From Magnetospirillum sp. XM-1 (GTDB taxonomy: Bacteria; Pseudomonadota; Alphaproteobacteria; Rhodospirillales; Magnetospirillaceae): a stretch of DNA of 64,000 nucleotides. Positions 39,668 to 54,200 of this stretch are shown here, one piece after another. The notes below the pieces were generated by a model, which saw nothing but the letters and a program-made list of their open reading frames with translations, did no database searches and was not told the DNA's origin. The position numbers and the translations under genes were made by a program. The stretch is taken from assembly GCF_001511835.1 (NCBI RefSeq), contig NZ_LN997848.1, positions 806,001-870,000 on the forward strand. The letters are read 5' to 3'. How positions within the stretch are numbered: the stretch's first letter is position 1; each line of letters starts with the position of its first letter.

Positions 39668-40752
39668 TCACCGGCGCCCCGCTGCCCGGCTGGATGGATC
39701 TGGCGGCGCTGCTGGGTGTCGCGACAGATGGCGACGTGGCGGCCGCGCCCTGGACCTTGCCCGCCGACAAGGCGGTATGGTTTTCGCGCTCCGCCCACGG
39801 CCTGGCCGCCATCGTCGCCTCCTGGCGCCGCCGGCACGGTCGTCCGCCCCGGCTCTGGGTGCCCGACTATTTCTGCAACGCCAGCCTTGACCCGGTGCGA
39901 CGGGACGGCATTTCCCCGATTTTCTACCCCGTGGGCCTCGATCTGGAGCCCGATTGGCAGGAATGCCGCCATCTGGCCCTGGCTGAGGCGCCCGATCTGG
40001 TCCTGGCGGTGCATTATTTCGGCCTGCCCGCCGCCATGGGTGCGGCCCTTGAATTCTGTCGCCAGGCGGGTGCCCTGCTGATCGAGGATTGCGCCCATGT
40101 GCTGGCGCCCATGGACGGTGTGGGTCAGACCGGCGACTTCGTGCTGTGGAGCCCGCACAAGCACTTGGCGGTGCCCCAGGGTGGTCTGGTGGTGTGCCGC
40201 GCGCCCGACGAGGCCCTCGCTGCGCCGCCGGGCTCTTCGCCCTCATTGCGCGGCTGGCTGGCCAAGCGGCTGATTCAGAAGGTGGCGCCCGGCTGGCTGC
40301 TGCCGCCGGCCACCCGCCAGGGACCCCAGCGCTTCGAGGATGATCCGCCCGAGGGCCACCTGCCCGACACGCCCACCCTGGCTCCTCGGGCCCTTGCCCT
40401 GCTGGCCGCGGTCCGCCCGTCCCTGCCCCGGGTGGTGGCCCGGCGGCGGCGCAACGCCCTGGCCCTGCTGGAGGTCCTGAACCGGGTCGCCGGTTGGGAG
40501 CCGCTGTTCGACCCGGGATCCGCCACCCCTTACCGGCTGGTCATGCGGTGCGGGTCGCCGGACGTCGCCTCCCAGCGCTTCGAGGTCTATCGCGGCCGGG
40601 GTATTCCCGTGGAAAGCTGGCCCGACCTAGCTCCCGAAGTGAAGGCCGCCCCCGCCAGCCATGCCCGCGCCCTGGCCCTGCGAGCCCATCTGCTGTGCTT
40701 TCCGGTGCATCAGGGCATCGAAACGGCGGAACTGATCCACCGGGCGGGCTGA
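39664..40752 (+). CDS. DegT/DnrJ/EryC1-like PLP protein
   Basis: This 362-residue fold type I PLP protein is a divergent DegT-like member. WVPDYFCNASLDPVRR replaces the usual PSxTFxAT segment, AGALLIEDCAHVLAP holds the PLP-ring Asp, and the Schiff-base Lys is near residue 166 in LWSPHKHLAVPQGG. The Lys is present, so catalysis is possible, but the divergent substrate loops prevent assigning a sugar. It closes the asnB-FemAB-deacetylase operon with four-base overlap. Convergent with the nucleotidyltransferase 9 bases downstream. Confidence 0.8.
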   Translation: MITGAPLPGWMDLAALLGVATDGDVAAAPWTLPADKAVWFSRSAHGLAAIVASWRRRHGRPPRLWVPDYFCNASLDPVRRDGISPIFYPVGLDLEPDWQECRHLALAEAPDLVLAVHYFGLPAAMGAALEFCRQAGALLIEDCAHVLAPMDGVGQTGDFVLWSPHKHLAVPQGGLVVCRAPDEALAAPPGSSPSLRGWLAKRLIQKVAPGWLLPPATRQGPQRFEDDPPEGHLPDTPTLAPRALALLAAVRPSLPRVVARRRRNALALLEVLNRVAGWEPLFDPGSATPYRLVMRCGSPDVASQRFEVYRGRGIPVESWPDLAPEVKAAPASHARALALRAHLLCFPVHQGIETAELIHRAG

Positions 40753-40761
40753 TATTCGCTT

Positions 40762-41496
40762 TCAGTTTGGAAGGCGGGGTAGAATGTCGGTGGCGGCCCG
40801 TTCCACATCGGCGGGAAAGTCGATTTCGACCCAGGGCAGGCCGGTGATGTCCGATGCGGTCTGGCGGCCGGTTCCAGCCAGGACCAGATCGCGAATGACC
40901 TCCTCATATGGCTCATCCAGGCGTCCGGCGGCCACGTATTCGGCAGCTCGCTTCGCCAAGCGTCCGGCCATGGTGGCGGAAAAACGGAAGAAGCCGACCG
41001 ATTCACCGACGGTGTCGTGGCGTACGGGATCAACCTTCTTTCGAAACTCCACCGGTTTACCATTGTCGAGCAGTAATTTGACCGGCTCGTCGCCCGGCTC
41101 GAAATCTCGGTCCAGCAGGAACCGGATGTCGTCGCCAGGTTCGAGCAACGGTCGGACCATATCGGGGTGACACAAGACGTCGGCGTCCATCACCAGCACG
41201 TCGCCGCCGGCGGTCAGGGCCGGCCCCAGACGATGCAGGGTGACGACACTGCCCCGTTCAAAATCGGGATTGGAAATAGTTCGGATTCCGGGGTGTCCAG
41301 CCAAGGCTTGCTCGATAATTCCGGCGTGAAAACCGGTGGCGATTACCACCTCGTTCACGCCGAAACCTTGCAGCATGGCAAGATGGCGTTTCAGCAAGGT
41401 CTTGCCACCGAAGGACAGCATGATCTTGGGCTGGTCGCCCAGGGGGCTTCCCAGCCGCAGGCCGCGGCCGGCGGCAAGGATGACGGCTCTCAGCAT
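40762..41496 (-). CDS. pntC: CTP-transferase of the PntC/phosphocholine cytidylyltransferase type
   Basis: This 244-residue nucleotidyltransferase-fold protein starts RAVILAAGRGLRLG (residues 3-16), then QPKIMLSFGGKTLL, VLVMDADVLCHP and the acidic metal site near LDEPYEEVIRDL. The family activates phosphocholine or 2-aminoethylphosphonate (AEP) with CTP. It overlaps the phnW stop by seven bases, so CMP-AEP formation is the best inference. Activated AEP would then be transferred to a glycan or lipid. Phosphocholine or another head group remains possible. No LicD-like transferase is seen nearby. Confidence 0.82.
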   Translation of the reverse strand: MLRAVILAAGRGLRLGSPLGDQPKIMLSFGGKTLLKRHLAMLQGFGVNEVVIATGFHAGIIEQALAGHPGIRTISNPDFERGSVVTLHRLGPALTAGGDVLVMDADVLCHPDMVRPLLEPGDDIRFLLDRDFEPGDEPVKLLLDNGKPVEFRKKVDPVRHDTVGESVGFFRFSATMAGRLAKRAAEYVAAGRLDEPYEEVIRDLVLAGTGRQTASDITGLPWVEIDFPADVERAATDILPRLPN

Positions 41497-42614
41497 TTGA
41501 TTTTCTCCCGCTTCATTGTCCCGAGTACTTCGGCCACCATGGCGACGGCCCGCTCCATATCGGCGATATCAAGGTCGCCGATACAGCCCATTCGAAAGGT
41601 TTCGCCCTGGGTCAGCTTGCCCGGATAAATCACCACCTGACGCTTTTCGAGCAGGTGATAGAAGGTGGAAAAACAAAAATCCGGGGCGGAGGGCATGTGA
41701 AAAGAGACGATGATGGGCGATTGCAGCGATAGCGGCAGCAGCGGCTCGAATCCCAATCGCGTCATCGCCTCGACCAGCCGGTCCCGGTTTCGGCTATAGC
41801 GGAGCAGCCGGGCGGCGGGACCGCCTTCGGCCTCCAGGGTAATCAGGGCCTGATCCAATGCGGCGATCACATGGGTTGGAGGGGTGAAACGCCACTGCCC
41901 GGTCTTGGTAAAACCCGTCCACTGGTCGTGCAAATCCAGGGACAGGCTGGGGCAATTGCCCGCGGCTGCCGACAGGGTCGCCTTGTCGGCCAGCACGAAG
42001 GCCAGGCCGGGGACACCTTCCAGGCATTTATTGGCCGAGCCCACCACCGCTTCTGCCGGTAGGGTGCTGAGGTCCAGGGGCAGGGCGCCAAAGGCGCTGA
42101 TGGCATCGACGATCAGCTTTTTCCCACGGGCGGCGGCGACATGGGCGATATCGTCGAGGGGATTGAGGATTCCCGATGTGGTCTCGCACCACACTACCGA
42201 CACATGGGTCATGTGGGGCGAGGCCGCCAGGGCGTCATCCAGCGCCTTGGCCGAGACCGGTTCGGTTTCGGGGAATTCCATGACCTGATGAGGGCGGCCA
42301 AGCCGGCGGCAGATTTCAGCCATTCGCCGGCCATAGACGCCGTTGGCCAAGATCAGGAGCATATCTGTGGGGCGCAGCAAGGTGCCCAAGGTCGCTTCCA
42401 CCGCGAAGGTGCCGCTGCCTTGAATAGGGACGCAGACATGGCTGTCGCCGGCCCCCGCCAAGGCTTCCAGCCGGGAACGGATGCTGCCGGTCAGGGCCAG
42501 GAAGCTTTCCTCCCGCGAGCCGTAATCGGTCAACATGGCCGCCCGAGTCGCCGACGCCACCGACAGTGGCCCCGGCGTCAACAGTAGCCGGCGAGGAAGC
42601 GGCGCGCTGCTCAT
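41490..42614 (-). CDS. phnW: 2-Aminoethylphosphonate:pyruvate transaminase
   Basis: This class V aminotransferase has 374 residues (family ~365-370). It aligns by eye with PhnW along its length: LLLTPGPLSVASATRAAML, VPIQGSGTFAVEATLG, CETTSGILNPLDDI, VDAISAFGALPLDL and the PLP lysine in GSANKCLEGVPG (about residue 196). It interconverts phosphonoacetaldehyde plus alanine with AEP plus pyruvate. Beside a CTP-transferase and with PEP mutase 9 kb away, the biosynthetic direction is more likely than degradation; no PhnX hydrolase is visible. The start ATG overlaps the radical SAM stop by four bases. Confidence 0.9.
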   Translation of the reverse strand: MSSAPLPRRLLLTPGPLSVASATRAAMLTDYGSREESFLALTGSIRSRLEALAGAGDSHVCVPIQGSGTFAVEATLGTLLRPTDMLLILANGVYGRRMAEICRRLGRPHQVMEFPETEPVSAKALDDALAASPHMTHVSVVWCETTSGILNPLDDIAHVAAARGKKLIVDAISAFGALPLDLSTLPAEAVVGSANKCLEGVPGLAFVLADKATLSAAAGNCPSLSLDLHDQWTGFTKTGQWRFTPPTHVIAALDQALITLEAEGGPAARLLRYSRNRDRLVEAMTRLGFEPLLPLSLQSPIIVSFHMPSAPDFCFSTFYHLLEKRQVVIYPGKLTQGETFRMGCIGDLDIADMERAVAMVAEVLGTMKREKIKC

Positions 42615-44092
42615 TTCAGGAATTCCCGGCGGTAACGCTCGGTGTATTCCATGAACAGGGCATTGCCTTCGGGAGTGTCGGCTTCGGCCCGGCGGATGTC
42701 GCCCCATTCCTCGCGGGGGAATTTGACATAGAGCGGGAAGGTGCGATGCAGTCCCGACAGCTCGACTTTGCTCATCTGCGGCATATCAAGGGTGGGGCCG
42801 ACCCGGTAATCGCCGGCGATTTCGTCCTCTCTGATCAGGCCCTCCAATTCGCAGACCTCGCGCAGCTTGCTGCCCTTGTAGGGGCTGAAATAGCCCACGA
42901 TCACCCCATCGGGGGCAATCTTGCGGTCCAACTCGATGGTTTCGAAGATCATTTCGCGGGTCTCGCCGGGAAACCCGATGACATTGTTGGCCGAAATCCG
43001 CAGCTTGGTCTCGCGTAGCACGTCGAAGGCTCGCAAAATGGTGTCGTCGCTGATCAGGCGGCCGAGCACGTTCTTGCGCAGGTCATAATTACCGCTTTCT
43101 ACCCCGACGCTGACGCTTTCGCAGCCGATGCCGACCAGCAGGTCGATCTTTTCGCGGGTTACCGATTCGGGACGGACTTCCACCCAGAACGGCAGATTGA
43201 CCTTCTCGCGATACAACTGGACGAAGCGTTCAATCCGCTTCAAAGGGGTGGTTAGGAAGCTTTCCGCCACTAAGTAGCAATAGGCCAGTTGGTAGCGTTC
43301 CTTCTTCTCGACCATCTCGTCGATCAGGCGATCGATATTCTTTTCGCGGTAATATTTATCCGAGTAGAGCTCATTGTATCCGGAATTGATGCAGTAGGTG
43401 CAGGAATAGGGGCAACCCCGGTTCATCTCGAACGCCCCAGTGACCGAAACCCGGCCACCCATGGGCTTCCAGAAGCGGCGACGGTCATAGACTTCCCAAT
43501 CCTGCGGCGGCAGGCTCGTCAGGTCCACCGGGGGACGGACGGCATTCTTGTAGACCTTACCGTTCTGCTTGACCCAGAGGTTGAGTACGTCCGAATGATC
43601 CTGGCCGTCACGCAGGCGCTGGCACAGTTCAACCAGGGCCTCCTCACCCTCGCCGACGCACACCATGTCCACCGCCGGGTGGCGGATGCACATCTCGGGA
43701 GCGAATGTGGGAAAGGGACCGCCGGCTACGGTGGGAATTCCCCGCCCGGCGACAGCCTCCAGCAATCTTGCGCCCAGTTCCCAGGTCACCTCGATACAGG
43801 ACAGGCCGATCAGATCGGGCTTGTACTCTTCGACCACCCGGACAAAGTCCTCGACTACGTCCACATCGGCGGGAGCGACCCCAAAATCCTCGAGTCGGGT
43901 GGGGCGGACCTGCAAGGCCCGGGCGCGGGCCTCGTCGCCGGTGATGTCGGCGGTGCGATAGAAAGTGGTGTCGAACAGACGGATACCGAATCCAGCCTCT
44001 TTGACACAACCGGCCAGGACGCCGATTCCTGCCGTGATCAACGTATCAAGCATAGTGTTGCTGTTGATCAACAGTACCCGAAATTCCTTCAT
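42611..44092 (-). CDS. B12-binding-domain radical SAM protein (first)
   Basis: This 493-residue class B radical SAM protein has an N-terminal Rossmann-like cobalamin-binding domain (1-~190: VLLINSNTMLDTLITAGIG, GLSCIEVTWELG, VAGGPFPTF). The cluster motif follows as RGCPYSCTYC (Cys 227, 231, 234). The B12 His motif (DxHxxG) is not seen, so cobalamin may bind base-off without a protein ligand or not at all. It is very likely a methyltransferase or another C-C bond enzyme, substrate unknown. ATG 44092 has an ideal AAAGGAG six to ten bases upstream. It is coupled to both neighbours. Confidence 0.87.
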   Translation of the reverse strand: MKEFRVLLINSNTMLDTLITAGIGVLAGCVKEAGFGIRLFDTTFYRTADITGDEARARALQVRPTRLEDFGVAPADVDVVEDFVRVVEEYKPDLIGLSCIEVTWELGARLLEAVAGRGIPTVAGGPFPTFAPEMCIRHPAVDMVCVGEGEEALVELCQRLRDGQDHSDVLNLWVKQNGKVYKNAVRPPVDLTSLPPQDWEVYDRRRFWKPMGGRVSVTGAFEMNRGCPYSCTYCINSGYNELYSDKYYREKNIDRLIDEMVEKKERYQLAYCYLVAESFLTTPLKRIERFVQLYREKVNLPFWVEVRPESVTREKIDLLVGIGCESVSVGVESGNYDLRKNVLGRLISDDTILRAFDVLRETKLRISANNVIGFPGETREMIFETIELDRKIAPDGVIVGYFSPYKGSKLREVCELEGLIREDEIAGDYRVGPTLDMPQMSKVELSGLHRTFPLYVKFPREEWGDIRRAEADTPEGNALFMEYTERYRREFLK

Positions 44093-44988
44093 GGTCGGCT
44101 CCTTTGCCACGGGGCGCCGAGCAGTCCGGCAATCCAGTCGTAGCCTTGCTGAATGTCTGAGGTGACCCGATCAACGGGGTATTCAAAGATGATGGCCGGG
44201 TAAGGGGCCTGGCCGAGAACCGTGTCCAGGAGCGCCGGGATATCGAACCAGCCATCTTTTGCTTGATTGTCGGGATGCAGGGGGCGCCTTTCGCGCAGGC
44301 CGGACCGTCCGTGCCACAGATGCATGGAGCGGATGCGGGAAGCCAGGATGGCGGCATCCTTGAGCGGATCACGACAGCGTCGTGCGGCGCCGATCCATAG
44401 GTGTCCCACATCCAGGCAGATTCCCAGTTCCGGCAGGTCTGCCAGCGCCTCCATAAAGCCCTCTGCGGAGTGAAAACCATCGCTGTAGGCGGCGAATTCC
44501 ACATCCACCATCACACCATGCGAGCGAGCCGCGGCGGCGATGCGTTTGCAGGCTGCATGAGCCAGACGCCGAGCCTCGATCGGATCGGTGGTATCCGTTT
44601 CGCCGAAGGTGAGATGGCAAACCGCATAATCGGCGTTCAGCCGACTAGCCCAGGCCAAGCCGTGTTCTAGCAATCGGAACGAGTGCTCCCGGCGCTCCCC
44701 GTCGGCATGCAGAAAATACCAATGGGTATGGCACTGAGGCGCCCAGTGAGGGCGGAATACCGGAAGGTGGACACTGAGACCCGTCCGGCCTTCTTCCGCC
44801 ATGGTCGCGCACAGGGATGGGATGTGCTCCACCATGGCCGGGTTCAGGTCGAGAATCTCGAACCGCCCCAATCCACGGTGAATGAGATTGGCGGGAGGGT
44901 GGTAGGGATGGTCGTGAACGACTGGAACCTGTTGCGGCACCGGCGGATCTTCGACTGAAGATGAGACCTGCAGCTGTCCGACAGCCAT
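44089..44988 (-). CDS. Xylose-isomerase-like TIM-barrel (sugar phosphate isomerase/epimerase)
   Basis: This AP-endonuclease-2-type TIM barrel has about 299 residues. VDVEFAAYSD (metal Glu), GICLDVGHLWIG (Asp and His of the metal site), MHLWHGRSGLR and IIFEYPVD (last metal Glu) are visible. Family members isomerise or epimerise keto sugars or act on similar small molecules; no specific reaction can be named. The start is uncertain: ATG 44988 or an upstream TTG at 45057, neither with a good ribosome site. It heads the operon leading to radical SAM, PhnW and PntC genes. Confidence 0.78.
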   Translation of the reverse strand: MAVGQLQVSSSVEDPPVPQQVPVVHDHPYHPPANLIHRGLGRFEILDLNPAMVEHIPSLCATMAEEGRTGLSVHLPVFRPHWAPQCHTHWYFLHADGERREHSFRLLEHGLAWASRLNADYAVCHLTFGETDTTDPIEARRLAHAACKRIAAAARSHGVMVDVEFAAYSDGFHSAEGFMEALADLPELGICLDVGHLWIGAARRCRDPLKDAAILASRIRSMHLWHGRSGLRERRPLHPDNQAKDGWFDIPALLDTVLGQAPYPAIIFEYPVDRVTSDIQQGYDWIAGLLGAPWQRSRP

Positions 44989-45106
44989 TTCCAAGGGCCA
45001 GCGGCCGTTGGCAAGGGGGCAGGAAACTCCTTGGGAAAAGCGCCGCCTTTGGGACAAGGGGTGTCTGTTCCGCGGCGGAACTTAAGAGATCGGACGCCGT
45101 CTTACT

Positions 45107-45120
45107 GTGACGACGGTCAA
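45107..45120. promoter_or_regulatory. FNR-like box upstream of the phosphonate operon
   Basis: GTGACGACGGTCAA differs from TTGAY-N4-RTCAA by one base and shares the GACGA core with the box at 47237. It overlaps the stop codon of the molybdo-enzyme gene and lies about 120 bases before the TIM-barrel start. A chance match is possible. Confidence 0.4.
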
Positions 45121-47168
45121 GCGGGCTGCAACCAGATGGCGGTATCGTGGAAAACCCCGCCGCCCCCAGGCATGCCAGGATCGGCGCTGGTCAGATGGTT
45201 GATACCCAGACCTCCGGAGAAGTCGGCATTGGGCCAGAGCCCTTCCACGACCACCACTCCGGGCCGCAGGCCGTCAAACGGTCGTAGCGTCGCCAGCACC
45301 TCGCCCCTGGCATTGCCAAGGCGTACCAGCATTCCTTCCTCCAGGCCCAACTGTTGGCAATCCTTGGGGTGGACGAGGGCGGTGGGGCGGCCCTCGGCGG
45401 CGCGGCCGGCGGGTGTTTCGGTGAAAGTGGTATTCAGAAAACTGCGGGCAGGTGGGGTTACCAGCCGAAAAGGATGGTCCGCATCGGCGGCCTCGATCAC
45501 CGTACAATGGTCAGGAAAGGTGGGCAATTTGGTATGATCGGCCCCCAAGGCTGCCCAATCGGGGCTGAAGTGGAAGCGACCATCCTTGTGCCCGAATCCG
45601 GTGGCGAAATGAGCAGTGGGGAAATCCAGGGCACAATCATGACCACCCGCTGCCAGAACCTCATCTGCCCCGGGCCAGCCCGAACGCCGTAATGTGGTGT
45701 CCACCAGTTCCCAAGCCGTCATGTGAAAGCCGGGATGGTCGGCTTCCAAAAGCTCTGCCAAGGCACAAATTACCTCATGGTTGGAGCGGGATTGGCCATG
45801 GGGCTCGATTAAGGCTCGTGCGACCCCTAGATAGGTATGGCCTCCGCCGCGATAAAGGTCGTCGTGCTCCAGGAAGGTGGTTGCGGGCAGAACGATGTCG
45901 GCGAAACGCGCCGTCTCGGTCATGAACTGTTCGTGCACGCACAAAAACAGGTCGTCGCGTGCCAAGCCGCGCCGGACCAGATTACTGTCGGGAGCAACCA
46001 CCGCCGGGTTAGTGTTCTGTACCAGCATGGCGGCTACCGGTGGACCATCGCCCAGGTCGCCGCGGTCACCGGTGAGAATGGGGCCGATGCGGGTCTGGTC
46101 CAACATCCGCACCGAGGCCTTCCGGCAGTCGGTTCCCTCGATCACGGTTGTATCCAGGTGATAAATGGCGGCATTGGAATAAAGCGCGCCGCCGCCAAGA
46201 TGGCGCCAGGCCCCGGTCATGGCGGGCAGGCAGGACGCGGCATGCATGGCTGCCGCTCCATTCCGGCTGCGGGTGAAGCCGTAGCCCAGACGCAGGAAAC
46301 TGCGCGGTGTGGTTCCATAAAGCCGGGCGAAGGATTCGATCTCGCAGGCGGGGATTCCGGTAATGGCTTCCGCCCAATGGGGAGAGCGGGATGCCAGATG
46401 TGCCTCGAGCTCCCGAGAGAAATCGGTGTGGGTGGCCATGTAGTCCCGATCGGCGTGGCCATCGCGCAGCAGGACGTGCATCACCGCCGTTGCCAGGGCG
46501 CCATCGGTTCCCGGGCGGGGCATCAGGTGAATATCGGCAGCCTCTGCGGTAGGCGTGCGGTAACAATCCACCACCACCAGGGGCGCTTGCCTGGCTCTGC
46601 GGGCCCGGTTAGCCCAGGATATGGCGTTGATCTGGGTATGGACGGCATTGCTGCCCCACAGGATCACTAGATCGGCTTCGGCCATTTCGCGGGGGTCGAG
46701 GCCGTGCTTCACCCCGGCGCCGGCCAGCCACCCCATATCCGCAAGGTAGTTGCATATGGTGGTTTTCTCGCCGGAATAGCCAAGCACATGGCGTAGGCGG
46801 TTGATGCCGTCGCGCTGAACCAGCCCCATGGTGCCGGCATAGTAGTAGGGCCAGACGGATTCCTCTCCAAATTGAGCGGCGGCCGAAGAGAAGGCATCGG
46901 CAACCGAGTGTAGGGCATCATCCCAGCTTATGGGTTCGAACCGTCCTTCGCCCTTGGCTCCGATCCGACGCAATGGCGTGGTCAGGCGGTCAGGATGATG
47001 CACCCGCTGGGCATAACGTGCCACCTTGGCGCAGATCACTCCATCGGTATAGGTGTTGCGGGCCGAGCCCCGAACACGGCCGATTGTGCGGGGGTCCAGG
47101 CGTTCCACGTCCAGTGCGCAGGTGCTGGGGCAATCGTGGGGGCAGACGGAAGGGAGGAATTCAGTCAT
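45117..47168 (-). CDS. Molybdopterin-dependent oxidoreductase with N-terminal [4Fe-4S] site
   Basis: This 683-residue protein of the DMSO reductase/formate dehydrogenase superfamily has an iron-sulfur site with Cys 9, 13, 17 (CPHDCPSTC) and 46 (GVICAKV). Molybdopterin-binding segments follow: LVILWGSNAVHTQIN, VVVDCYRTPTAEAADIHL, HLGGGALYSN, VQNTNPAV, and the C-terminal barrel (LVHPKDCQQLGLEEGMLVRLGNARG in part). No Tat signal is seen, so it is cytoplasmic. The usual metal ligand position cannot be read with certainty. No maturation or electron-transfer partner is adjacent. An FNR box lies 69 bases upstream of ATG 47168, pointing to low-oxygen expression. Confidence 0.85.
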   Translation of the reverse strand: MTEFLPSVCPHDCPSTCALDVERLDPRTIGRVRGSARNTYTDGVICAKVARYAQRVHHPDRLTTPLRRIGAKGEGRFEPISWDDALHSVADAFSSAAAQFGEESVWPYYYAGTMGLVQRDGINRLRHVLGYSGEKTTICNYLADMGWLAGAGVKHGLDPREMAEADLVILWGSNAVHTQINAISWANRARRARQAPLVVVDCYRTPTAEAADIHLMPRPGTDGALATAVMHVLLRDGHADRDYMATHTDFSRELEAHLASRSPHWAEAITGIPACEIESFARLYGTTPRSFLRLGYGFTRSRNGAAAMHAASCLPAMTGAWRHLGGGALYSNAAIYHLDTTVIEGTDCRKASVRMLDQTRIGPILTGDRGDLGDGPPVAAMLVQNTNPAVVAPDSNLVRRGLARDDLFLCVHEQFMTETARFADIVLPATTFLEHDDLYRGGGHTYLGVARALIEPHGQSRSNHEVICALAELLEADHPGFHMTAWELVDTTLRRSGWPGADEVLAAGGHDCALDFPTAHFATGFGHKDGRFHFSPDWAALGADHTKLPTFPDHCTVIEAADADHPFRLVTPPARSFLNTTFTETPAGRAAEGRPTALVHPKDCQQLGLEEGMLVRLGNARGEVLATLRPFDGLRPGVVVVEGLWPNADFSGGLGINHLTSADPGMPGGGGVFHDTAIWLQPA

Positions 47169-47236
47169 GGGGCCGACCATGCCTTGGTGCAACTGGGCAA
47201 GCGCTGAGAGCCTGGGCAGGCAAGAGCGCAGGGGCC

Positions 47237-47250
47237 TTGACGACGATCAA
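47237..47250. promoter_or_regulatory. FNR/Anr box
   Basis: TTGACGACGATCAA is an exact match to TTGAY-N4-RTCAA. It lies 69 bases before the start of the molybdopterin oxidoreductase (minus strand) and about 270 bases before the methyltransferase (plus strand), in a non-coding gap. Position and sequence both fit oxygen-responsive activation of the oxidoreductase. Confidence 0.65.
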
Positions 47251-47428
47251 GTGTCGGGAATGCCCAGGGTGCCGAAGTCGAAGTTCCGATTGGATCATAG
47301 GTCTTATCTTGGCCGGACGTGTTCCGGGCACCCAAGCCGGAGCGCTGCTGGAAAGGCAGTCAGGGGGGCTGCCCCTCTGGGCCACATGGACAAACCGATC
47401 CGTGGCAAGGGCGCGGCCTGTGTAAATC

Positions 47429-47457
47429 TTGACCAATGAAAATGTTTATGCTACAGG
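47429..47457 (+). promoter_or_regulatory. Candidate sigma-70 promoter of the plus-strand island operon
   Basis: TTGACC (47429-47434) and TACAGG (47452-47457) are separated by 17 bases in a locally AT-richer segment. The -10 is weak. It lies 65 bases upstream of the preferred methyltransferase start. Confidence 0.35.
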
Positions 47458-47521
47458 GAGCGCCTCGCCGGGCGTGGATTCCGCTCCGCCCGCTCCCATG
47501 CGATCGGGTCGTCACCCCAAC

Positions 47522-48187
47522 ATGACCGAAATCGATTTTCTGGCGCCTTTGCATAAGGCCACGACCCGAGACTACGTGCAGCGTGTGGTCGAATACGACA
47601 AGGCTGAGTGCGCCGCTGTCGCCAAGCAATGGGGCTACGATTACTGGGATGGTGACCGCCGCTTCGGCTATGGCGGCATGCGTTACGACGGTCGTTGGCG
47701 CCCAGTGGCCGAGGCGATGGTCGCCCATTACGGGCTGAAGGCGGGAATGCGGGTGTTGGACATCGGCTGTGGCAAGGCCTTCCTGCTCCATGAACTGACT
47801 CAGGTGGTACCCGGCATCGAAGTGGTGGGCCTCGACATTTCGGTCTATGCCATCGAACACGCCAAGGAAGAGGTCCGCCCCTTCCTAGTGCAGGGTGATT
47901 GTAGCTGCCGCCTGCCCTGGCCGGACCGCCACTTCGACTTCGTATTGTCCATTAATACGTTCCACAACCTGATCAACTTCCAGTTGATGGCAGCATTGAA
48001 GGAAATGGTGCGGGTGGCCCGTGGTCCCAAGTGGCTGTGTGTGGAAAGCTGGCGAAATGAACGCGAAAAGGCCAATTTACTTTACTGGCAGCTGACCTGC
48101 CACAGCTTCTACACGCCCGAGGAATGGCGGTGGTTCTACGATCTGGCCGGTTATGATGGTGATCACGGTTTCATCTATTTCGAATGA
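47522..48187 (+). CDS. Class I SAM-dependent methyltransferase
   Basis: This 221-residue protein has a Rossmann methyltransferase core. MRVLDIGCGKAFLLHEL is motif I, VVGLDISVYAIEHAKEEV motif II, LPWPDRHFDFVLSINTFHNL motif IV, then a C-terminal segment ending GDHGFIYFE. The substrate is unknown. Starts at 47498 and 47522 are both possible, neither with a good ribosome site; the frame also extends to a TTG at 47429 that is better read as a promoter element. It lies 15 bases before the second radical SAM gene, so the two may act in sequence. Confidence 0.83.
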   Translation: MTEIDFLAPLHKATTRDYVQRVVEYDKAECAAVAKQWGYDYWDGDRRFGYGGMRYDGRWRPVAEAMVAHYGLKAGMRVLDIGCGKAFLLHELTQVVPGIEVVGLDISVYAIEHAKEEVRPFLVQGDCSCRLPWPDRHFDFVLSINTFHNLINFQLMAALKEMVRVARGPKWLCVESWRNEREKANLLYWQLTCHSFYTPEEWRWFYDLAGYDGDHGFIYFE

Positions 48188-48202
48188 CGGAGATGATGTC
48201 AG

Positions 48203-49702
48203 ATGTCGAAGAAGGATAAGGTCCTCCTGGTACTGCCCAACAGCCGCTGGCATGAGCGCCGGCCGTGGCGGATCGCCAATAACGCCGCCTTCGTCCTTAC
48301 GGCCATTCTGAAACATGATTTTGACTTCGAGATTCTCGACGCCAACGGCGAAGATCTCGAAATGGATCAGGTGCGCGACCGCATCCGCGCCATCTCTCCC
48401 GACGCGGTCCTGGTCTCGGCGGTTTCATTGGAATACAGCCGCCAGACCCATACCACCTTCGCCCTGGCGCGCGAGGCCAAGCCCGGAGTGCTGACGGTGG
48501 TCGGCGGCCCCTATGCTTCGCTAATGCCCAAGCGGGTGATGCAGGATCCCAACATCACCTATTGCTTCCTGGGCCATGCCGAACACCGCCTGGACGACTT
48601 CATGAAGCTGGCCCTGGCGGGTGACGAGGAAGGCATCCGCAAGACCGAGGGCATCGCCTATCGCGACGAGGGTACGGTCCGCGTCGTCCCGCCGCCCTGC
48701 AACGTGGTCCAGATCAAGAAGAAGTATGGACTCGATCTTACCCATCCCGATTACAGCGCCTTCGATCTGACCCCCTATCTGGATCAGGAGCATATCGACT
48801 TCATGGCCAACGGGCCGGGTAAGACGTTCATGCTGATGTCGTCGCGCGGTTGCCCCCATAACTGTTCATTCTGCGCGAACAAGATTACCCAGGGACGCGG
48901 CATCGCCTATTACGACCCTCACCGGATTCTTGAGGACATCGACTATCTGATCGCCCGCTACGACATCAATCACCTGATCTTCATCGATGATTTGTTCCTC
49001 TATGACCGTGAAAGGGTGGAAATCATCATTCGCGGCATCGGCGAGCGGCGAAAAAATAACCCGAAGCTGACTTGGCACCACGCCAACGTCTCGGCTTGGC
49101 ACCTCGATCCGCCGCTGCTGGCGCTGATGCGCGAGACTGGCTGTTCGAAGATCATCATTTCGATCGAGTCGGGATCGCCGCGGGTGCTGAAGGAACTGAT
49201 CCGCAAGCCCTTCAAGCTCGATATCGTTCCCAAAGTGGTCAAGATGTGTCGCGACGCCGGCATGGATATCGGTGCCAACTTTGTCCTCGGCATGCCGGGT
49301 GAGACCTGGGAGGAGATCCGCCAGACCTTCCGCTTCGCCGAGGAAATGGATATCGATCTTTGTCATTTCCATATCGCCACGCCGCAGCCCGGCACCGATC
49401 TCTATCACATGGCCAATGACCAGGGCCTGCTGCCGCCGGACTTCTCATTCACGGACGAGCGCTTCTTCGGCTATGGAGAGGGCTTCATCGCCACCGACGA
49501 GTTCACCCCGACGGAACTCAAGGTCCTGCGTGCCTATGAGTGGGACCGCATCAACTTCAAGACGCCGGAGAAGTGTGCCAAGGTGGCCGAGATGTACATG
49601 CTGTCGCCGGCCGGGCTGGAGGAGCATCGCCGCCAGACCCGCCGCAAGCTGGGCCTGCATCATAACGAGGATGAAACCGGCCGGAACCGCATCCGCGCCT
49701 AA
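48203..49702 (+). CDS. B12-binding-domain radical SAM protein (second)
   Basis: This 499-residue class B radical SAM protein has an N-terminal B12-type domain (VLLVLPNSRWHERRPWR, ILDANGEDLE, SAVSLEYSRQT, VVGGPYASL). The cluster motif RGCPHNCSFC (Cys 217, 221, 224) and the SAM-binding FIDDLFL and ISIESGSP segments follow. It is similar in size to the first radical SAM protein but clearly different in sequence, so not a recent duplicate. No DxHxxG motif is seen. Substrate unknown; it lies between a methyltransferase and a broken sugar aminotransferase gene. Confidence 0.87.
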   Translation: MSKKDKVLLVLPNSRWHERRPWRIANNAAFVLTAILKHDFDFEILDANGEDLEMDQVRDRIRAISPDAVLVSAVSLEYSRQTHTTFALAREAKPGVLTVVGGPYASLMPKRVMQDPNITYCFLGHAEHRLDDFMKLALAGDEEGIRKTEGIAYRDEGTVRVVPPPCNVVQIKKKYGLDLTHPDYSAFDLTPYLDQEHIDFMANGPGKTFMLMSSRGCPHNCSFCANKITQGRGIAYYDPHRILEDIDYLIARYDINHLIFIDDLFLYDRERVEIIIRGIGERRKNNPKLTWHHANVSAWHLDPPLLALMRETGCSKIIISIESGSPRVLKELIRKPFKLDIVPKVVKMCRDAGMDIGANFVLGMPGETWEEIRQTFRFAEEMDIDLCHFHIATPQPGTDLYHMANDQGLLPPDFSFTDERFFGYGEGFIATDEFTPTELKVLRAYEWDRINFKTPEKCAKVAEMYMLSPAGLEEHRRQTRRKLGLHHNEDETGRNRIRA

Positions 49703-49711
49703 GGTGGCCCC

Positions 49712-49957
49712 GTGATCGTCAGGATTGATCTGCGGGTGACTGACGATCACGGGCACCACGAGTTGCCGGCGGCGGTGGACGCGGTTCTGCGTCACGGCCG
49801 CTTGGCGCTCGGGCCCGGGGCGGCCCGCTTCGAATCCCTGTTGGCCGAATGCATCGGCCGCACCCTGGCGGTCAGCATCAAGTCCGGCACCGACGCCCTG
49901 GTGCCGGTGCTCGCCGTCATCGGCGAGGATCTACACGCCGCACACCGACAGTCTTGA
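49712..49957 (+). pseudogene. DegT/DnrJ/EryC1 aminotransferase, N-terminal remnant
   Basis: Eighty codons starting at GTG 49712 encode the N-terminal part of a DegT-type sugar aminotransferase: LPAAVDAVLRHGRLALGPG, then FESLLAECIGRTLAVSIKSGTDALV. This aligns with the start of intact DegT proteins such as the one at 56616 (GWYVLGREVDAFEREFAEYLG...VNSGTDAL). After GEDLHAAHRQS the frame stops; the other ~280 residues, with the PLP lysine, are absent. The following ~220 bases have no recognisable homology, so this looks like a deletion scar. Confidence 0.75.
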
Positions 49958-50179
49958 TCTGGGTTGCCAGGCCCCCAACAGCCAGGAGATGCAGATGGGC
50001 AATTCGAAGACTCTATGGCTGCGGGAATGTAGTGCATTGCCCGACGACCGTTGTATGTTCGGCCCGCCGCCCTTGGACCTGCGGCGTCACGAGTGCATTC
50101 GCGCACGAGCGCGGCGGGTGATTGGGTTTCCTGGAGGAGCCCGCCGGGAAATTATGGATACAATCAAGGATTCCAGATC

Positions 50180-51295
50180 ATGAGTACGACCGAGGTGCGA
50201 TGCCTGCTGTGTGGCACCGGCGCTGTCGTGGCGCGCGCCGTGCCGCTGCCGATCATCGACGTGTCGATTGCGGTCTCGATTGTCCACGCCGATTGGCGAT
50301 TGGGCGTCTGCCAGGCCTGCGGCGCCAGCCACCGCCTTCTCAGCGCAACCGAGGCGGCGCGGATCGACGGCAGCTTCAAGAGCGCCGACTACATCGACCG
50401 TCGCCAGGTGCCGCAGACCGTTCACGTCAAGGACCGGCCGGCACCGACGGCGCGGCACGTCCTGCAAGCCGAACTGCTGATGGCGCGGATGGCGCCGCAT
50501 TCCCGGCTGCTGGATTTCGGCTGCCACGACGGTGCTCTTCTCGGCTGCCTGGCTGAACGCCGCGGTGACATGGATCTGGTCGGCTACGACGTCGGCGACC
50601 GCCCACCGGCCAGCTATCCGGCGGGCGTGGCGTGGATTGGCGGAGCACGCGATGCAATTCCCGGCCGCTTCGACGCCATCGTTCTGTCCTATTCGCTGCA
50701 ATACGTGCGTGATCTGGGCGCCCTTGGCGCCTTCTTGCGCGAGCGGCTGCTGCCGGGCGGTTTCGTCCTCATCCAGGTTCCCGACGTGGCGCGCAAGCCG
50801 GCGGTGCTGCTATTAGGCAATCAACACCATTTCTTCACCACGCAGGGAATGGCGGCCGTGCTCCATCACATCGGCTTCGCCTATGAACCGCTGGAGCGAG
50901 ACTGGGCCGCTCGCGACGCCCTCGGTTTCGCCACGCCTGCCGCCGAACCTGGGTCGGCGCTGGCTTCCGGTCCGGTATGCGACGCGGTGTTTGCGGCCCT
51001 CGATGAGATCGTCGCCACCGGCGAGGGGCTGGCCAAACTGGCCGGAGGCGGCCGTTACGGCGTGCTGGGGACCACAGTCGAGGCCGCCCTGGCCGGCGAC
51101 ATCCTAGGAGCCGACGCCGCCTATTTCGTCGACGAGAATCCCGGTAAGGCCGGGCAGACGTTCTTTGGGCGTGCTATTATTCACCCGCGGGAGCTGACGG
51201 CGGCGGATACGGTCATCCTTCCGTACGGCAAGGCCGGTGATGCCATCGGGCGACGGCTCGCAAGCGAATACAAGGGCAGATTCCTTGTCGTTTGA
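50180..51295 (+). CDS. SAM-dependent methyltransferase with N-terminal Cys motif (C-methyltransferase type)
   Basis: This 371-residue protein follows the three-part layout of NDP-sugar C-methyltransferases. It has N-terminal Cys pairs (CLLCG, CQACG) that could bind zinc, a central SAM domain (LLDFGCHDGALLGCL, FDAIVLSYSLQYV) and a C-terminal domain (YGVLGTTVEAAL, YFVDENPGKAGQTFFG, VILPYGKAG). Compare the gene at 55396, which has the same build. The acceptor may be a keto sugar or a small molecule of the island. ATG 50180 follows AAGGATTCCAGATC. It lies downstream of the DegT remnant. Confidence 0.82.
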   Translation: MSTTEVRCLLCGTGAVVARAVPLPIIDVSIAVSIVHADWRLGVCQACGASHRLLSATEAARIDGSFKSADYIDRRQVPQTVHVKDRPAPTARHVLQAELLMARMAPHSRLLDFGCHDGALLGCLAERRGDMDLVGYDVGDRPPASYPAGVAWIGGARDAIPGRFDAIVLSYSLQYVRDLGALGAFLRERLLPGGFVLIQVPDVARKPAVLLLGNQHHFFTTQGMAAVLHHIGFAYEPLERDWAARDALGFATPAAEPGSALASGPVCDAVFAALDEIVATGEGLAKLAGGGRYGVLGTTVEAALAGDILGADAAYFVDENPGKAGQTFFGRAIIHPRELTAADTVILPYGKAGDAIGRRLASEYKGRFLVV

Positions 51296-51771
51296 CACCA
51301 TCGGGCGGCCGCGCCTCGGCGATGGCAGCGGTGGCGAACTGTTCCAGGGCCTCCTCGCCGAGACTTCCTCGATGGCCATCCGCGGCGGCTGATGGTCTCC
51401 GGCCACCAGCCTGACATGCCACCGGTCTGCGGATCGCCGGAGGTTGGCTCTGTCGCGGCGGCGGGCTGGATGGATCATCGCGGTCAGGCCATAGCTGGGC
51501 CATGAGAGTCTTGACTAATCCCGACCCGCGCAGTATCCAGACCTTGTCCGGAGAACCCGATTGGTTTCCGGCGGGGGAACGCGCTCCCCCTTCCGTGTTC
51601 GACGGAGATACCGCTGTGGCGGTGGCGTAATCAGGCCGGTTCACAGCCGTGCCGAACAGCCTCCAATGCCCGTGCCGCACCAGATTTTCACCAAATATGA
51701 GCGTCTGCCCGCCGCCCCACCGGTCGCGGCCCTCCCCAGCCGCCTCGCCTAGCTTGAAAGAGGTCTACGCA
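51296..51771. other. Non-coding gap before the PEP mutase gene
   Basis: In this 476-base stretch open frames on both strands have no recognisable protein pattern. The best is a 42-codon plus-strand frame at 51502-51630 (MRVLTNPDPRSIQTL...), which I cannot identify. The last ~20 bases hold the pepM ribosome site (AAAGAGG, 51757-51763). The gap may contain a remnant of a lost gene and the pepM promoter; no transposon ends are evident. Confidence 0.5.
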
Positions 51772-52713
51772 ATGGTTCCTGTGGATCCCCACATGGTAGG
51801 CAATGTCAGCCGTTCCGGTCGCTTCCGGCAGATGCTGGCCCAGCCGTCCGCGTCGTTCCTGATGGAAGCCCATAACGGCCTGTCGGCGCGTATCGTCGAA
51901 CAGGCCGGCTTTGAAGGTATCTGGGCTTCGGGACTGTCCATCGCCACCTCGCTGGGCCTGCGCGACTGCAACGAGGCCTCGTGGACCCAGGTCCTCGATA
52001 TCGTCGAATACATGGCCGATGCCACATCGATCCCCATCGTGGTTGACGGTGATACCGGTTACGGCAATTTCAATAATGCCCGCATGCTGGTGCGCAAGCT
52101 GTGCCAGCGGCATGTGGCCGCGGTGTGCCTGGAAGACAAAATCTTCCCCAAGACCAATTCTTTCATCGGCGAAGAGCAGGAACTGGCCGACGTCGCCGAG
52201 TTCTGCGGCAAGATCGCGGCGTGCAAGGACAGCCAGAGCGATCCCAATTTCAGCGTCATCGCCCGTGTCGAGGCCCTGATCGCCGGCAAGGGCGTCAACG
52301 AGGCCCTCGACCGGGCCCATGCCTATGCCGAAGCTGGCGCCGACGCCATTCTTATCCACTCGAAGAAGGCCGATCCGGCGGAGATTCTTGAATTCGCCGA
52401 TCGCTGGCACCACCAGCGTCCTCTGGTGGTAGTGCCCACCATGTATTACAGAACGCCGACCGAGGTGTTCGAGAAGGCCGGCGTGTCGCTGGTCATCTGG
52501 GCCAATCACAATATGCGGGCGGCCATCGTCGCCATGCGCGAGACCTGCCGCCATATCGCCACCACCCGCAGCCTGGTCGGCATCGAAGAGAAGTTGCCGA
52601 CCGTCAAGGATGTGTTCAATCTGATGAATTACGACGAGTTGTTCGAGGCCGAGCGCCGTTACCTGCCGGGGGGCGAACCCGACGACGAACCGGCCGCCGG
52701 GCCGCGAAGCTGA
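51772..52713 (+). CDS. pepM: Phosphoenolpyruvate mutase
   Basis: This enzyme converts PEP to phosphonopyruvate, the entry step of nearly all phosphonate biosynthesis. It has 313 residues and belongs to the isocitrate-lyase/PEP-mutase TIM-barrel superfamily. The diagnostic EDK-x5-NS motif is present as EDKIFPKTNS (121-130), with IWASGLSIATSLGLRDCNEASW and VVDGDTGYGNFNNA around the metal site. Isocitrate and methylisocitrate lyases carry a Cys loop here instead. ATG 51772 has AAAGAGG eight bases upstream. The acidic C-terminal tail is variable. No phosphonopyruvate decarboxylase adjoins it. Confidence 0.93.
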   Translation: MVPVDPHMVGNVSRSGRFRQMLAQPSASFLMEAHNGLSARIVEQAGFEGIWASGLSIATSLGLRDCNEASWTQVLDIVEYMADATSIPIVVDGDTGYGNFNNARMLVRKLCQRHVAAVCLEDKIFPKTNSFIGEEQELADVAEFCGKIAACKDSQSDPNFSVIARVEALIAGKGVNEALDRAHAYAEAGADAILIHSKKADPAEILEFADRWHHQRPLVVVPTMYYRTPTEVFEKAGVSLVIWANHNMRAAIVAMRETCRHIATTRSLVGIEEKLPTVKDVFNLMNYDELFEAERRYLPGGEPDDEPAAGPRS

Positions 52714-52765
52714 GGGAAACGGAATTTTTGGCCTCTATCCCGAAACCAATGATAGTGACCCGATC

Positions 52766-53290
52766 ATGAGTACCAGCGATTTGAATCTGTGGATCATCGG
52801 ACCGCCGTGTTCGGGCAAGACGACACTGGCGCGGCTGGTGGTGGAGCATTTGCGGGTCCAAGGCCGGGCCGCCATGCTGGTGGACGGCGACGAGGTTCGA
52901 GATCTTTTCGACGCCAAGCTGGGTTATGACCGGGTGTCGCGTTCTCGCCAGACCATGCGGGTATTGTCTTTGACCCGCTGGATTCAGCGCCAGGGGGTGA
53001 TTCCCGTGGTGGCGCTGATCCATCCCTTCGAGGCCGATCGGGTGTTCTGCCGGGCCGAACTCGGCGGCTATGCCGAGGTTTACCTGCGCTGCGACATCAA
53101 GGAGCGCATTAACCGCGACGGCAAGAAGCTTTACCTGCCGGCCATCCGGGGCGAGAAGCGCAACGTGGTCGGGGTCGACATTCCCTTCGAGGACCCCGAG
53201 CATGCCGAGCTTATCCTCGACAGCGATATTCTCGATCCTGGGCAACTGCTGACCGAGCTGGCGGCCAGGCTGTTGTCGCCCCGGAACTGA
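52766..53290 (+). CDS. Adenylylsulfate-kinase-like (CysC-like) P-loop kinase
   Basis: This 174-residue P-loop kinase has Walker A GPPCSGKTT (12-20), the APS-kinase signature DGDEVRDLF, LGYDRVSRSRQTMRVL in place of the canonical LGFS region, and YLRCDIKERINRDGKKLY. The fold and DGD motif indicate the CysC family, but the P-loop (CysC usually GLSGAGKST) and substrate regions are divergent. It could make PAPS for sulfation or phosphorylate another small molecule. No cysD, cysN or sulfotransferase lies in this window, which favours a specialised kinase linked to PEP mutase. Confidence 0.8.
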   Translation: MSTSDLNLWIIGPPCSGKTTLARLVVEHLRVQGRAAMLVDGDEVRDLFDAKLGYDRVSRSRQTMRVLSLTRWIQRQGVIPVVALIHPFEADRVFCRAELGGYAEVYLRCDIKERINRDGKKLYLPAIRGEKRNVVGVDIPFEDPEHAELILDSDILDPGQLLTELAARLLSPRN

Positions 53291-53539: not shown

Positions 53540-53582
53540 TCGCGCCGTGAACAAGCTTGGTGCGGAAAGAGCCTGTCGGGGC

Positions 53583-54200
53583 ATGCCTCCCAACGAACAG
53601 CAGATCATTCTTGACCTTCTCAGCGAAGTCCATCGGGACAGCCGGGCGACCCAACGTGAGATCGCGACCAATCTGGGAATCGCCCTTGGCCTGGCCAACG
53701 GCTACCTGAAGCGTTGCGTCAAGAAGGGCCTGATCAAGGTTTCACAGGCGCCGCCCAACCGCTATCTCTATTATCTCACGCCTGCGGGCTTTTCCGAGAA
53801 GGCCCGCCTGACCGGCGACTATCTGGCGCAGTCCTTCGACTTCTTCCGCAATGCCCGCAGCCAGTGCCGTCAGGTCCTAGATGACGCCGCCCAGCGGGGC
53901 TGGCGGCGCGTCGCCCTGGTCGGCGCGTCCGAACTGGCCGAGATCATGGCCCTTTGCGCCACCGGTACCAATATCGAACTGGTCGGAGTGATCGACCCGG
54001 TGGCCCAGGGCGACCCGCTGCTGGCCGGTTTGCCGGTGTTGCCGTCCCTGGCCGCCGCCAATCGGGTGGATGGAATTGTCATCACCGCGCTGCAGGGGGC
54101 CCAGGCGGTCTACGATTCCTATGCGGCGGAACTGGGGCATCAGCGTCTGGCGGCTCCGGCGCTTCTGGGGCTGTCCACGCCCGAAAACGGGGGACGGTGA
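53583..54200 (+). CDS. Winged-helix transcriptional regulator with Rossmann-like C-terminal domain
   Basis: This 205-residue protein has a MarR/winged-helix N-terminus (QQIILDLLSEVHRDSRATQREIATNLG, LANGYLKRCVKKGLIKVSQ; motif parts). Its C-terminal domain has WRRVALVGASELAEIMAL and VIDPVAQGDPLLAGLPV, which looks like a nucleotide- or NAD-binding fold as in Rex-like sensors. Such proteins lie at the head of surface-polysaccharide loci in related bacteria; a role as locus regulator sensing a sugar nucleotide or redox cofactor is inference. A GTG at 53547 would add 12 residues. It overlaps the RfaH-like start by one base. Confidence 0.8.
   Translation: MPPNEQQIILDLLSEVHRDSRATQREIATNLGIALGLANGYLKRCVKKGLIKVSQAPPNRYLYYLTPAGFSEKARLTGDYLAQSFDFFRNARSQCRQVLDDAAQRGWRRVALVGASELAEIMALCATGTNIELVGVIDPVAQGDPLLAGLPVLPSLAAANRVDGIVITALQGAQAVYDSYAAELGHQRLAAPALLGLSTPENGGR

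Follow-up and report, generated by a model that had tools for sequence, protein, structure and literature searches.

Between positions 40762 and 53290 of the analysed window, a stretch of 64,000 nucleotides of Magnetospirillum sp. XM-1 DNA (NZ_LN997848.1, positions 806,001 to 870,000), ten predicted genes lie on two divergent strands (A to J; Table 1). Among them are genes for phosphoenolpyruvate (PEP) mutase (PepM, gene I), the 2-aminoethylphosphonate (AEP) aminotransferase PhnW (gene B) and a PntC-like cytidylyltransferase (gene A). All ten genes named at this locus in an earlier sequence-only reading are present. The locus is a true phosphonate island of a familiar type that extends further, and is more of a mosaic, than first described; no new enzyme class is shown. 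New is the predicted combination, within a glycan superlocus, of an AEP branch with a branch through hydroxyethylphosphonate dioxygenase (HEPD), an enzyme known mainly from antibiotic producers. Genes D and C add a hitherto undescribed candidate module for tailoring; no described combination of AEP, HEPD and D-C was met in the open-licence PMC literature.

Table 1 Genes of the phosphonate island and related features (window positions unless marked as genome positions).
Feature	Predicted product	Position	Strand	Basis or remark
A	NTP transferase, PntC-like CTP:phosphonate cytidylyltransferase, stand-alone	40762-41496	-	NTP_transf_3, E 4.6e-16
B	PhnW, AEP aminotransferase	41490-42614	-	TIGR03301 and TIGR02326 over cut-off
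C	Class B (cobalamin) radical S-adenosylmethionine (SAM) enzyme, candidate methylase/tailoring enzyme	42611-44092	-	PF02310 + PF04055
D	TIM barrel, AP_endonuc_2; start codon uncertain	44089-45057	-	Domain match
E	Single-subunit molybdopterin oxidoreductase	45117-47168	-	Domain match
F	SAM methyltransferase	47522-48187	+	Domain match
G	Second B12-binding + radical SAM enzyme	48203-49702	+	Domain match
H	SAM methyltransferase	50180-51295	+	Methyltransf_23
I	PEP mutase, unfused; start codon uncertain	51649-52713	+	TIGR02320, motif
J	CysC-like kinase	52766-53290	+	PRK05541
K-L	MarR_EPS-like regulator + RfaH-like antiterminator	53547-54703	+	TIGR04176, 59 bits (cut-off 88); RfaH, 108.5 bits (cut-off 144.5)
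HEPD operon	Iron-containing alcohol dehydrogenase (Fe-ADH), HEPD, aldehyde dehydrogenase (ALDH), D-2-hydroxyacid dehydrogenase	Genome C1:885613-890556 (L209:5613-10556)		15.6 kb beyond window
HEPD	PhpD-like hydroxyethylphosphonate dioxygenase, 454 residues	Genome 886773-888134		417 bits to PhpD (3g7d)
Decarboxylase pair	Split phosphonopyruvate decarboxylase (Ppd)-like pair, two adjacent short genes	Genome 900616-901095 and 901095-901679		Ppd model

Genes of the minus strand are tightly spaced, with overlaps of 7 (A/B), 4 (B/C) and 4 bases (C/D) and a gap of 59 bp between D and E; a divergent gap of 353 bp separates E from F. Gaps on the plus strand measure 15 (F/G), 477 (G/H), 353 (H/I) and 52 bp (I/J). 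Judged by the size of these gaps and overlaps, A to E resemble an operon, F is paired with G and I with J, and H is isolated. A single plus-strand operon spanning F to J was rejected because of the gaps of 477 and 353 bp. The GC content is 0.60–0.66 across 42–54 kb of the window, compared with 0.68–0.70 across 34–40 kb. No Rfam match to a cobalamin riboswitch was found over window positions 26000–64000, and the result of a promoter and terminator scan was no better than that obtained with shuffled sequence.

The product of gene I passes the TIGR02320 cut-off (391.5 against 319.6 bits), carries the sequence EDKIFPKTNS (EDKx5NS motif) at residue 162 of its open reading frame, and is the sole PF13714 protein found in the genome. 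B exceeds the cut-offs of two models for PhnW, TIGR03301 (450.6 bits, cut-off 360.8) and TIGR02326 (444.4 bits, cut-off 400.8). Residues 3–242 of A align end to end with Treponema PntC (6pd1, residues 4–238, E 5e-7), and R14, K24 and K153 of A are, by a hand count on the printed alignment, the equivalents of catalytic R15, K25 and K153, which have been shown to matter in PntC (excerpts of PMC6697681). The PEP mutase, PhnW and PntC-like transferase of the sequence-only reading were in this way recovered. By family, A is a weaker call than I or B: no curated PntC model matched it, its best curated models are other cytidylyl- or uridylyltransferases, far below cut-off, and its homologues are annotated as a phosphocholine cytidylyltransferase family.

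The call of A is supported by gene context. Genes resembling A (at least 39% identity) occur in 32 of the 57 pepM loci inspected, and homologues of B (52–58% identity) in 9; these loci, the counts for which were read off by hand, comprise 25 from carriers of C and 32 others, half of the latter from relatives searched for C (16) and half from gammaproteobacteria not searched for C (16). A and B are adjacent, together with Ppd and PepM genes, in two genomes of the same genus (G007, G014) and in one of the same family (G032; loci L165, L166 and L195). In Mycetohabitans rhizoxinica pBRH01, an A homologue lies directly upstream of aepX, aepY and an AEP aminotransferase gene. On the strength of the A-B adjacency in pepM loci of relatives, A, B and I form a true phosphonate core. 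A phosphonate is very probably made, and its CMP activation by A is likewise probable.

In a tree of 63 rows, the PepM of the window is nested, on a long branch, within a clade of PepM-NTP transferase fusions from alphaproteobacterial relatives; support for its precise position is weak (87/54), and the program cautioned that long branches can be drawn together. The most likely history has this pepM copy losing its fused NTP transferase domain, with A left as the cytidylyltransferase. Like the AEP loci of M. rhizoxinica pBRH01 (L213; not among the rows of the PepM tree) and of the same-genus genomes, the island has pepM, an aminotransferase of the PhnW type and a free-standing cytidylyltransferase of the A type. 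It differs from AEP loci in that PepM is unfused, in that Ppd, CDP-alcohol phosphotransferase and HpnL-like genes are missing from the island, and in that C, D, E, F, G, H and J are present. PntC of Treponema denticola (Tde1415, PDB 6pd1/6pd2; excerpts of PMC6697681) likewise combines an NTP transferase with an AEP transaminase and has the same catalytic residues, but the two activities are fused in that protein and encoded by two overlapping genes in the window.

I, B and A had been proposed as entry, middle and activating steps of AEP biosynthesis. These genes are real, but the island is not the whole pathway: the window contains no decarboxylase gene, and a decarboxylase-like pair and a branch through hydroxyethylphosphonate (HEP) and hydroxymethylphosphonate (HMP) are encoded 27–43 kb beyond pepM in the same genome. 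The two halves of the putative split decarboxylase reach 113.6 and 178.2 bits with the Ppd model, compared with 101.7 and 151.8 bits with that of sulfopyruvate decarboxylase. In the HEPD operon, the best model of the Fe-ADH is TIGR03405 (182 bits, cut-off 424), and that of the ALDH is phosphonoacetaldehyde dehydrogenase (474 bits, cut-off 635.7). HEPD matches no Pfam or NCBIfam model; it aligns with PhpD (3g7d) over residues 5–449 of 454, and reaches 36 bits with methylphosphonate synthase (MPnS). HEPD was found in 1 of the 64 genomes searched, namely the present one, and had no match on plasmids at 1e-15. Upstream, an ATP sulfurylase-like gene is followed by genes of a phosphate-type ABC transporter and then by the HEPD operon; the PstS- and PstB-like genes score below cut-off, and two permease-like genes were recognised between them by inspection.

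The functions of the operon would lead from phosphonoacetaldehyde to HMP, which is carried on to phosphonoformate in phosphinothricin producers. The early phosphinothricin proteins PhpC, PhpD, PhpE and PhpJ, together with argolaphos AlpG-L (excerpts of PMC8976061), correspond to the Fe-ADH, HEPD, ALDH and 2-hydroxyacid dehydrogenase that are here encoded by one operon outside the window. Unlike phosphinothricin producers, the genome contains no gene for carboxyphosphonoenolpyruvate (CPEP) mutase (there is a single PF13714 protein), C and G include no P-methylase of PhpK grade, and the context is that of glycan synthesis. As judged from gene content, both an AEP and an HMP branch are encoded in a glycan region, and the chances that both are in use are about even. 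Because only one PF13714 protein was found, the HEPD branch would depend on the pepM gene of the window, unless it works on imported phosphonate. The surroundings of HEPD fit the surface-glycan view but alter the chemistry. Most hepD sequences (79%) come from Actinomycetia (excerpts of PMC9381506).

C features a CxxxCxxC motif (residue 227), a B12-binding domain and a radical SAM core, and thus has class B architecture. Relatives of C (33–69% identity) were found in 55 genome loci; C is rare among genomes of the class (2/385 at E 1e-120) and had no match on plasmids at E 1e-60. In 18 proteobacterial loci with close C homologues (L017-L031, L055, L057 and L070), D precedes C in 17 and a molybdo-enzyme gene precedes D in 16. 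In 15 of the 18, the gene after C is tartronate-semialdehyde-reductase-like (f4; the single member tested scored 170 bits against a cut-off of 341), and two of the three loci without f4 end at a contig edge. C is 59–68% identical to 11 copies, and D 42–46% identical to 8 copies, compared from such E-D-C operons, so that the window features orthologous D and C side by side, as in the conserved E-D-C-f4 operon. Seven residues of D (H74, H125, E164, D193, H196, H223 and E269), which are invariant in 27 sequences, are likely metal ligands; the AlphaFold2 model of D has a pLDDT of 88. C, usually with D, is spread over Alpha- and Gammaproteobacteria and anammox and other planctomycetes, and C homologues lie beside PepM in some nanoarchaea.

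The distribution of C is associated with that of PepM. PepM over cut-off was detected in 16 of 18 proteobacterial C genomes, in one of two nanoarchaea with C, and in 24 of all 41 C genomes. These 41 were retrieved with C as the query, are related to each other and are mostly metagenome-assembled genomes (MAGs), where absence of PepM may reflect incompleteness; three pairs (G066/G099, G068/G109 and G102/G225) look like the same genome twice. The background is 31/99 in relatives and 19/274 in gammaproteobacteria, two of these 19 being known C carriers. Among gammaproteobacteria, all seven C carriers (G104, G110-G113, G137 and G138; G139, titled Proteobacteria only, was excluded) have PepM, compared with 17 of 272 genomes not searched for C (Fisher p 1.4e-8). 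Among relatives, the figures are 5/5 and 26/94 (Fisher p 0.0024), with C-positive defined as E < 1e-200 and weaker C-like matches in seven genomes scored as negative.

Direct linkage is found in a few loci. L018 has the order pepM-Ppd-E-D-C-f4 on one strand. In L023 (also L122, on the same contig), Ppd-pepM is divergent from E-D-C-f4, and in the window E-D-C-B-A is divergent from the pepM arm, so that the three arrangements differ. C homologues (39–45% identity) are clustered with PepM in nanoarchaeal L053, L054, L061 and L063. Ppd is also present in the last three, which recall the layout of the fosfomycin genes for Fom1, Fom2, FomC and Fom3 (excerpts of PMC8158854), a system that has PEP mutase, CTP activation and a B12 radical SAM enzyme in common with the window. 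In L054, the next gene is an Fe-ADH gene, and PepM bears a cytidylyltransferase-like domain. Together, these data constitute moderate evidence that C tailors a phosphonate, and we put the probability that C acts on a phosphonate at about one half.

The remaining genes point mostly to glycans. The only match of F in the plasmid collection is a homologue of 50% identity on Solidesulfovibrio carbinolicus pDCAR1, where it neighbours a radical SAM gene within a glycan locus; the 47 kb seen there contain no pepM. The one plasmid match of H (27%) lies in the same locus. F is probably glycan-related, and H is perhaps so as well. G has the class B architecture, with CxxxCxxC at residue 217, a B12-binding domain and a radical SAM core. 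Its homologues in the protein database comprise five at 63–66% identity (MAG or unnamed), the next being at 53% and below, and none exceeds 41% among 98 relatives. G-like proteins in the nanoarchaeal loci are 24–27% identical, which weakens the case for G as a pepM partner in archaea. Searches run without a positive control found no G at E ≤ 1e-60 in 10 genomes, four of them nanoarchaeal, and no G orthologue in 384 genomes from the phylum of an omnitrophote. For F, G and H, glycan tailoring is the more likely role. The genes described as one island of enzymes share a location but differ in history: A, B and I resemble AEP loci, C and D belong to the conserved operon for a molybdo-enzyme, a TIM barrel and a radical SAM enzyme, F has its best plasmid match in a glycan locus, G has no close homologue among the relatives, and E is a member of a common, mostly alphaproteobacterial family.

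J passes PRK05541, named adenylyl-sulfate kinase (131.5 bits, cut-off 127), and falls short of TIGR00455 (112.5 bits, cut-off 138.7); it may be an adenylyl-sulfate (APS) kinase. A paralogue of J (52% identity) maps to genome positions 878714-879265, one gene away from a gene for an ATP sulfurylase-like protein, and a gene with weak resemblance to sulfotransferases lies at 899010-900494. Cj1415 of Campylobacter is CysC-like. In the capsule region of that genus, O-methyl phosphoramidate genes Cj1415-Cj1418 include a cytidylyltransferase and a kinase (excerpts of PMC11800397), as do A and J in the window, but the phosphorus source is glutamine there and PEP mutase here, and a role of J in 3'-phosphoadenylyl sulfate (PAPS) synthesis is equally possible. 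The assignment of J as a Cj1415-like kinase is weakened by the paralogue and the ATP sulfurylase-like gene at 878.7-882.2 kb. The CysC-like kinase had been counted as part of the phosphonate set; it is present, but the position of its paralogue near the ATP sulfurylase-like gene makes sulfation a live alternative. As a separate observation, a split transketolase-like pair, the second CysC-like kinase gene, an asparagine synthase-like gene and the ATP sulfurylase-like gene lie in a row at C1:876871-882166 (L162:6871-12166); the glycan locus of Solidesulfovibrio pDCAR1 contains split transketolases too.

Glycan genes flank the island on both sides, as had been noted. Upstream (36088-40752), genes for an asparagine-synthase-type amidotransferase (372 bits with the model for the XrtA/PEP-CTERM amidotransferase, below its cut-off), a FemAB-like protein, a polysaccharide deacetylase and DegT constitute an exopolysaccharide-type locus that abuts the island. 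Downstream, K-L head the next glycan genes (dTDP-sugar). Bacterial phosphonate capacity is believed to serve, for the most part, the decoration of cell surfaces (excerpts of PMC6697681). The activation gene and the glycan setting lend partial support to the proposal of a CMP-activated phosphonate on lipopolysaccharide (LPS) or exopolysaccharide (EPS), and a product on surface glycan is somewhat favoured. No enzyme for transfer to LPS or EPS was recognised: the genome gave no LicD match, and neither the window nor the following 40 kb contains a CDP-alcohol phosphotransferase gene like that of the lipid loci.

Overall, the best explanation, to which we give about an even chance, is that the window contains the entry and activation half of a phosphonate/glycan superlocus of ~55 kb. 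PEP would be converted by I to phosphonopyruvate and by the split decarboxylase to phosphonoacetaldehyde. One branch would then lead to AEP (B) and CMP-AEP (A), and the other to HEP (Fe-ADH) and HMP (HEPD), possibly continuing to phosphonoformate. The activated phosphonate would be tailored by C, most likely by radical methylation, by analogy with the action of Fom3 on CMP-HEP, and then attached to the surface glycan made by the flanking loci. J could either phosphorylate the CMP-phosphonate at its 3' position, by analogy with Cj1415 and CDP-phosphoramidate, or be an APS kinase for sulfation. Least secure in this scheme are what C acts on, what D and E do, and which enzyme performs the transfer.

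Several results weigh against this scheme. E is 31–36% identical to E of 11 E-D-C operons, which are 51–81% identical to each other, and by this comparison is not orthologous to them. The closest relatives of E among the 120 matches listed (61–72% identity) are mostly alphaproteobacterial where named, suggesting that E belongs to a very common, mostly alphaproteobacterial family; the presence of another subfamily in the molybdo-enzyme slot could be either a replacement or an accident. In the window, C is followed by B and A instead of f4. PepM over cut-off is found in only 7 of 19 planctomycete C genomes and in neither of two Rokubacteria, and C therefore need not act on phosphonates. PepM lies outside the C locus in most proteobacterial C genomes, and within the same order (own genome included) the co-occurrence is weak (5/5 compared with 19/40, p 0.051); in all these tests, related genomes are not independent. 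The decarboxylase halves, Fe-ADH and ALDH all score below their own curated cut-offs. LicD (PF04991) had no match in the genome and was detected in 2 of 14 control genomes. With the P-methyltransferase models PhpK (TIGR04479; cut-off 600) and Sden_1168 (NF038361; cut-off 575), C reaches 86 and 49.5 bits, and G 86 and 127 bits. P-methylation by C or G was rejected as the leading idea, given these scores far below cut-off and the lack of a CPEP mutase. The closest solved structure to both proteins is AprD4, a dehydratase by its NCBIfam name and no methylase, so that radical deoxygenation is also possible for either.

A simpler explanation, which we regard as somewhat unlikely, is that A, B, I and the distant decarboxylase carry out a plain AEP modification of surface glycan, and that the remaining genes C-D-E, F-G and H modify glycans or lipids, are unrelated, and were gathered by the recombination typical of polysaccharide loci. 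A, B and I are indeed the part common to the window and the AEP loci of relatives, the plasmid relatives of F and, weakly, H belong to a glycan locus devoid of pepM, E is a common alphaproteobacterial protein, and the G/H and H/I gaps oppose one plus-strand operon. C, however, is probably cotranscribed with the AEP genes, because C, B and A overlap by 4–7 bases; C and D adjoin pepM in L018 and L023, C co-occurs with PepM across genomes, and the HEPD operon suggests that the output is not AEP alone. An unlikely alternative for C itself is that D-C acts on a hopanoid or another lipid, its co-occurrence with PepM arising because both are common in hopanoid makers. C is as similar to HpnJ and BchE as it is to PhpK. 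Of 19 planctomycete loci, 16 have, downstream of C, an HpnL-like gene (f5 family; the single member tested scored 162 bits against a cut-off of 196), and HpnH, HpnA or HpnN is found beside pepM in 9/25 loci of C carriers and 14/32 others. Together with the planctomycete C genomes without PepM over cut-off, this HpnL-like gene makes a lipid role conceivable. Against it, C directly overlaps the PhnW gene in the window, the module adjoins pepM-Ppd in L018 and L122, where none of the hopanoid markers used was found, and genomes that lack C can likewise have HpnL-like genes in their pepM loci.

The HEPD cassette, 27 kb away, could also serve the use of imported phosphonates and be unrelated to the island, which seems improbable. 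It follows a phosphate-type transporter, its ALDH resembles the catabolic enzyme PhnY, and 53% of the genomes with phpC have no pepM (excerpts of PMC9381506). The product of HEPD, however, is HMP and not phosphate, and the genome contains pepM and a decarboxylase-like pair able to feed HEPD. Moreover, hepD neighbourhoods may include surface-modification genes, adenylylsulfate transferase among them (excerpts of PMC9381506), and an ATP sulfurylase-like gene lies here directly upstream of the transporter. A more far-reaching reading of the superlocus, which we regard as less likely than not, is that C, in bacteria usually with D and often with a molybdo-enzyme, forms a tailoring module for CMP-phosphonate head groups, merged here with an HMP/phosphonoformate branch; the surface would then bear, in place of AEP, a phosphonate that is methylated or has one carbon. 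Little is known of how phosphonates are tailored beyond AEP. Should CMP-phosphonate be the substrate of C and D, the two would represent a widespread candidate module with a directly testable substrate. The HEPD operon would extend surface phosphonates to HMP or phosphonoformate.

Some further pepM loci were noted. PepM-NTP transferase fusions lie beside HpnH, HpnA or HpnN both in C carriers (L103-L106, L108, L109, L111, L118 and L193) and elsewhere (L172, L173, L176, L178-L181, L188-L191, L194, L196 and L201), often accompanied by genes that resemble those for CDP-alcohol phosphotransferase and HpnL; these are likely phosphonolipid loci of hopanoid makers. In nanoarchaeal L053, L054, L061 and L063, PepM and B12 radical SAM enzymes are accompanied by proteins that resemble, by eye, CDP-alcohol phosphotransferases, hinting at phosphonate lipids in small archaeal genomes. 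In the planctomycete G118 (L036:414-5000), where no PepM was detected, split Ppd-like genes and a PhnW-like protein gene lie beside the genes for the molybdo-enzyme, TIM barrel and radical SAM enzyme, and a sulfonate analogue of the phosphonate pathway is conceivable.

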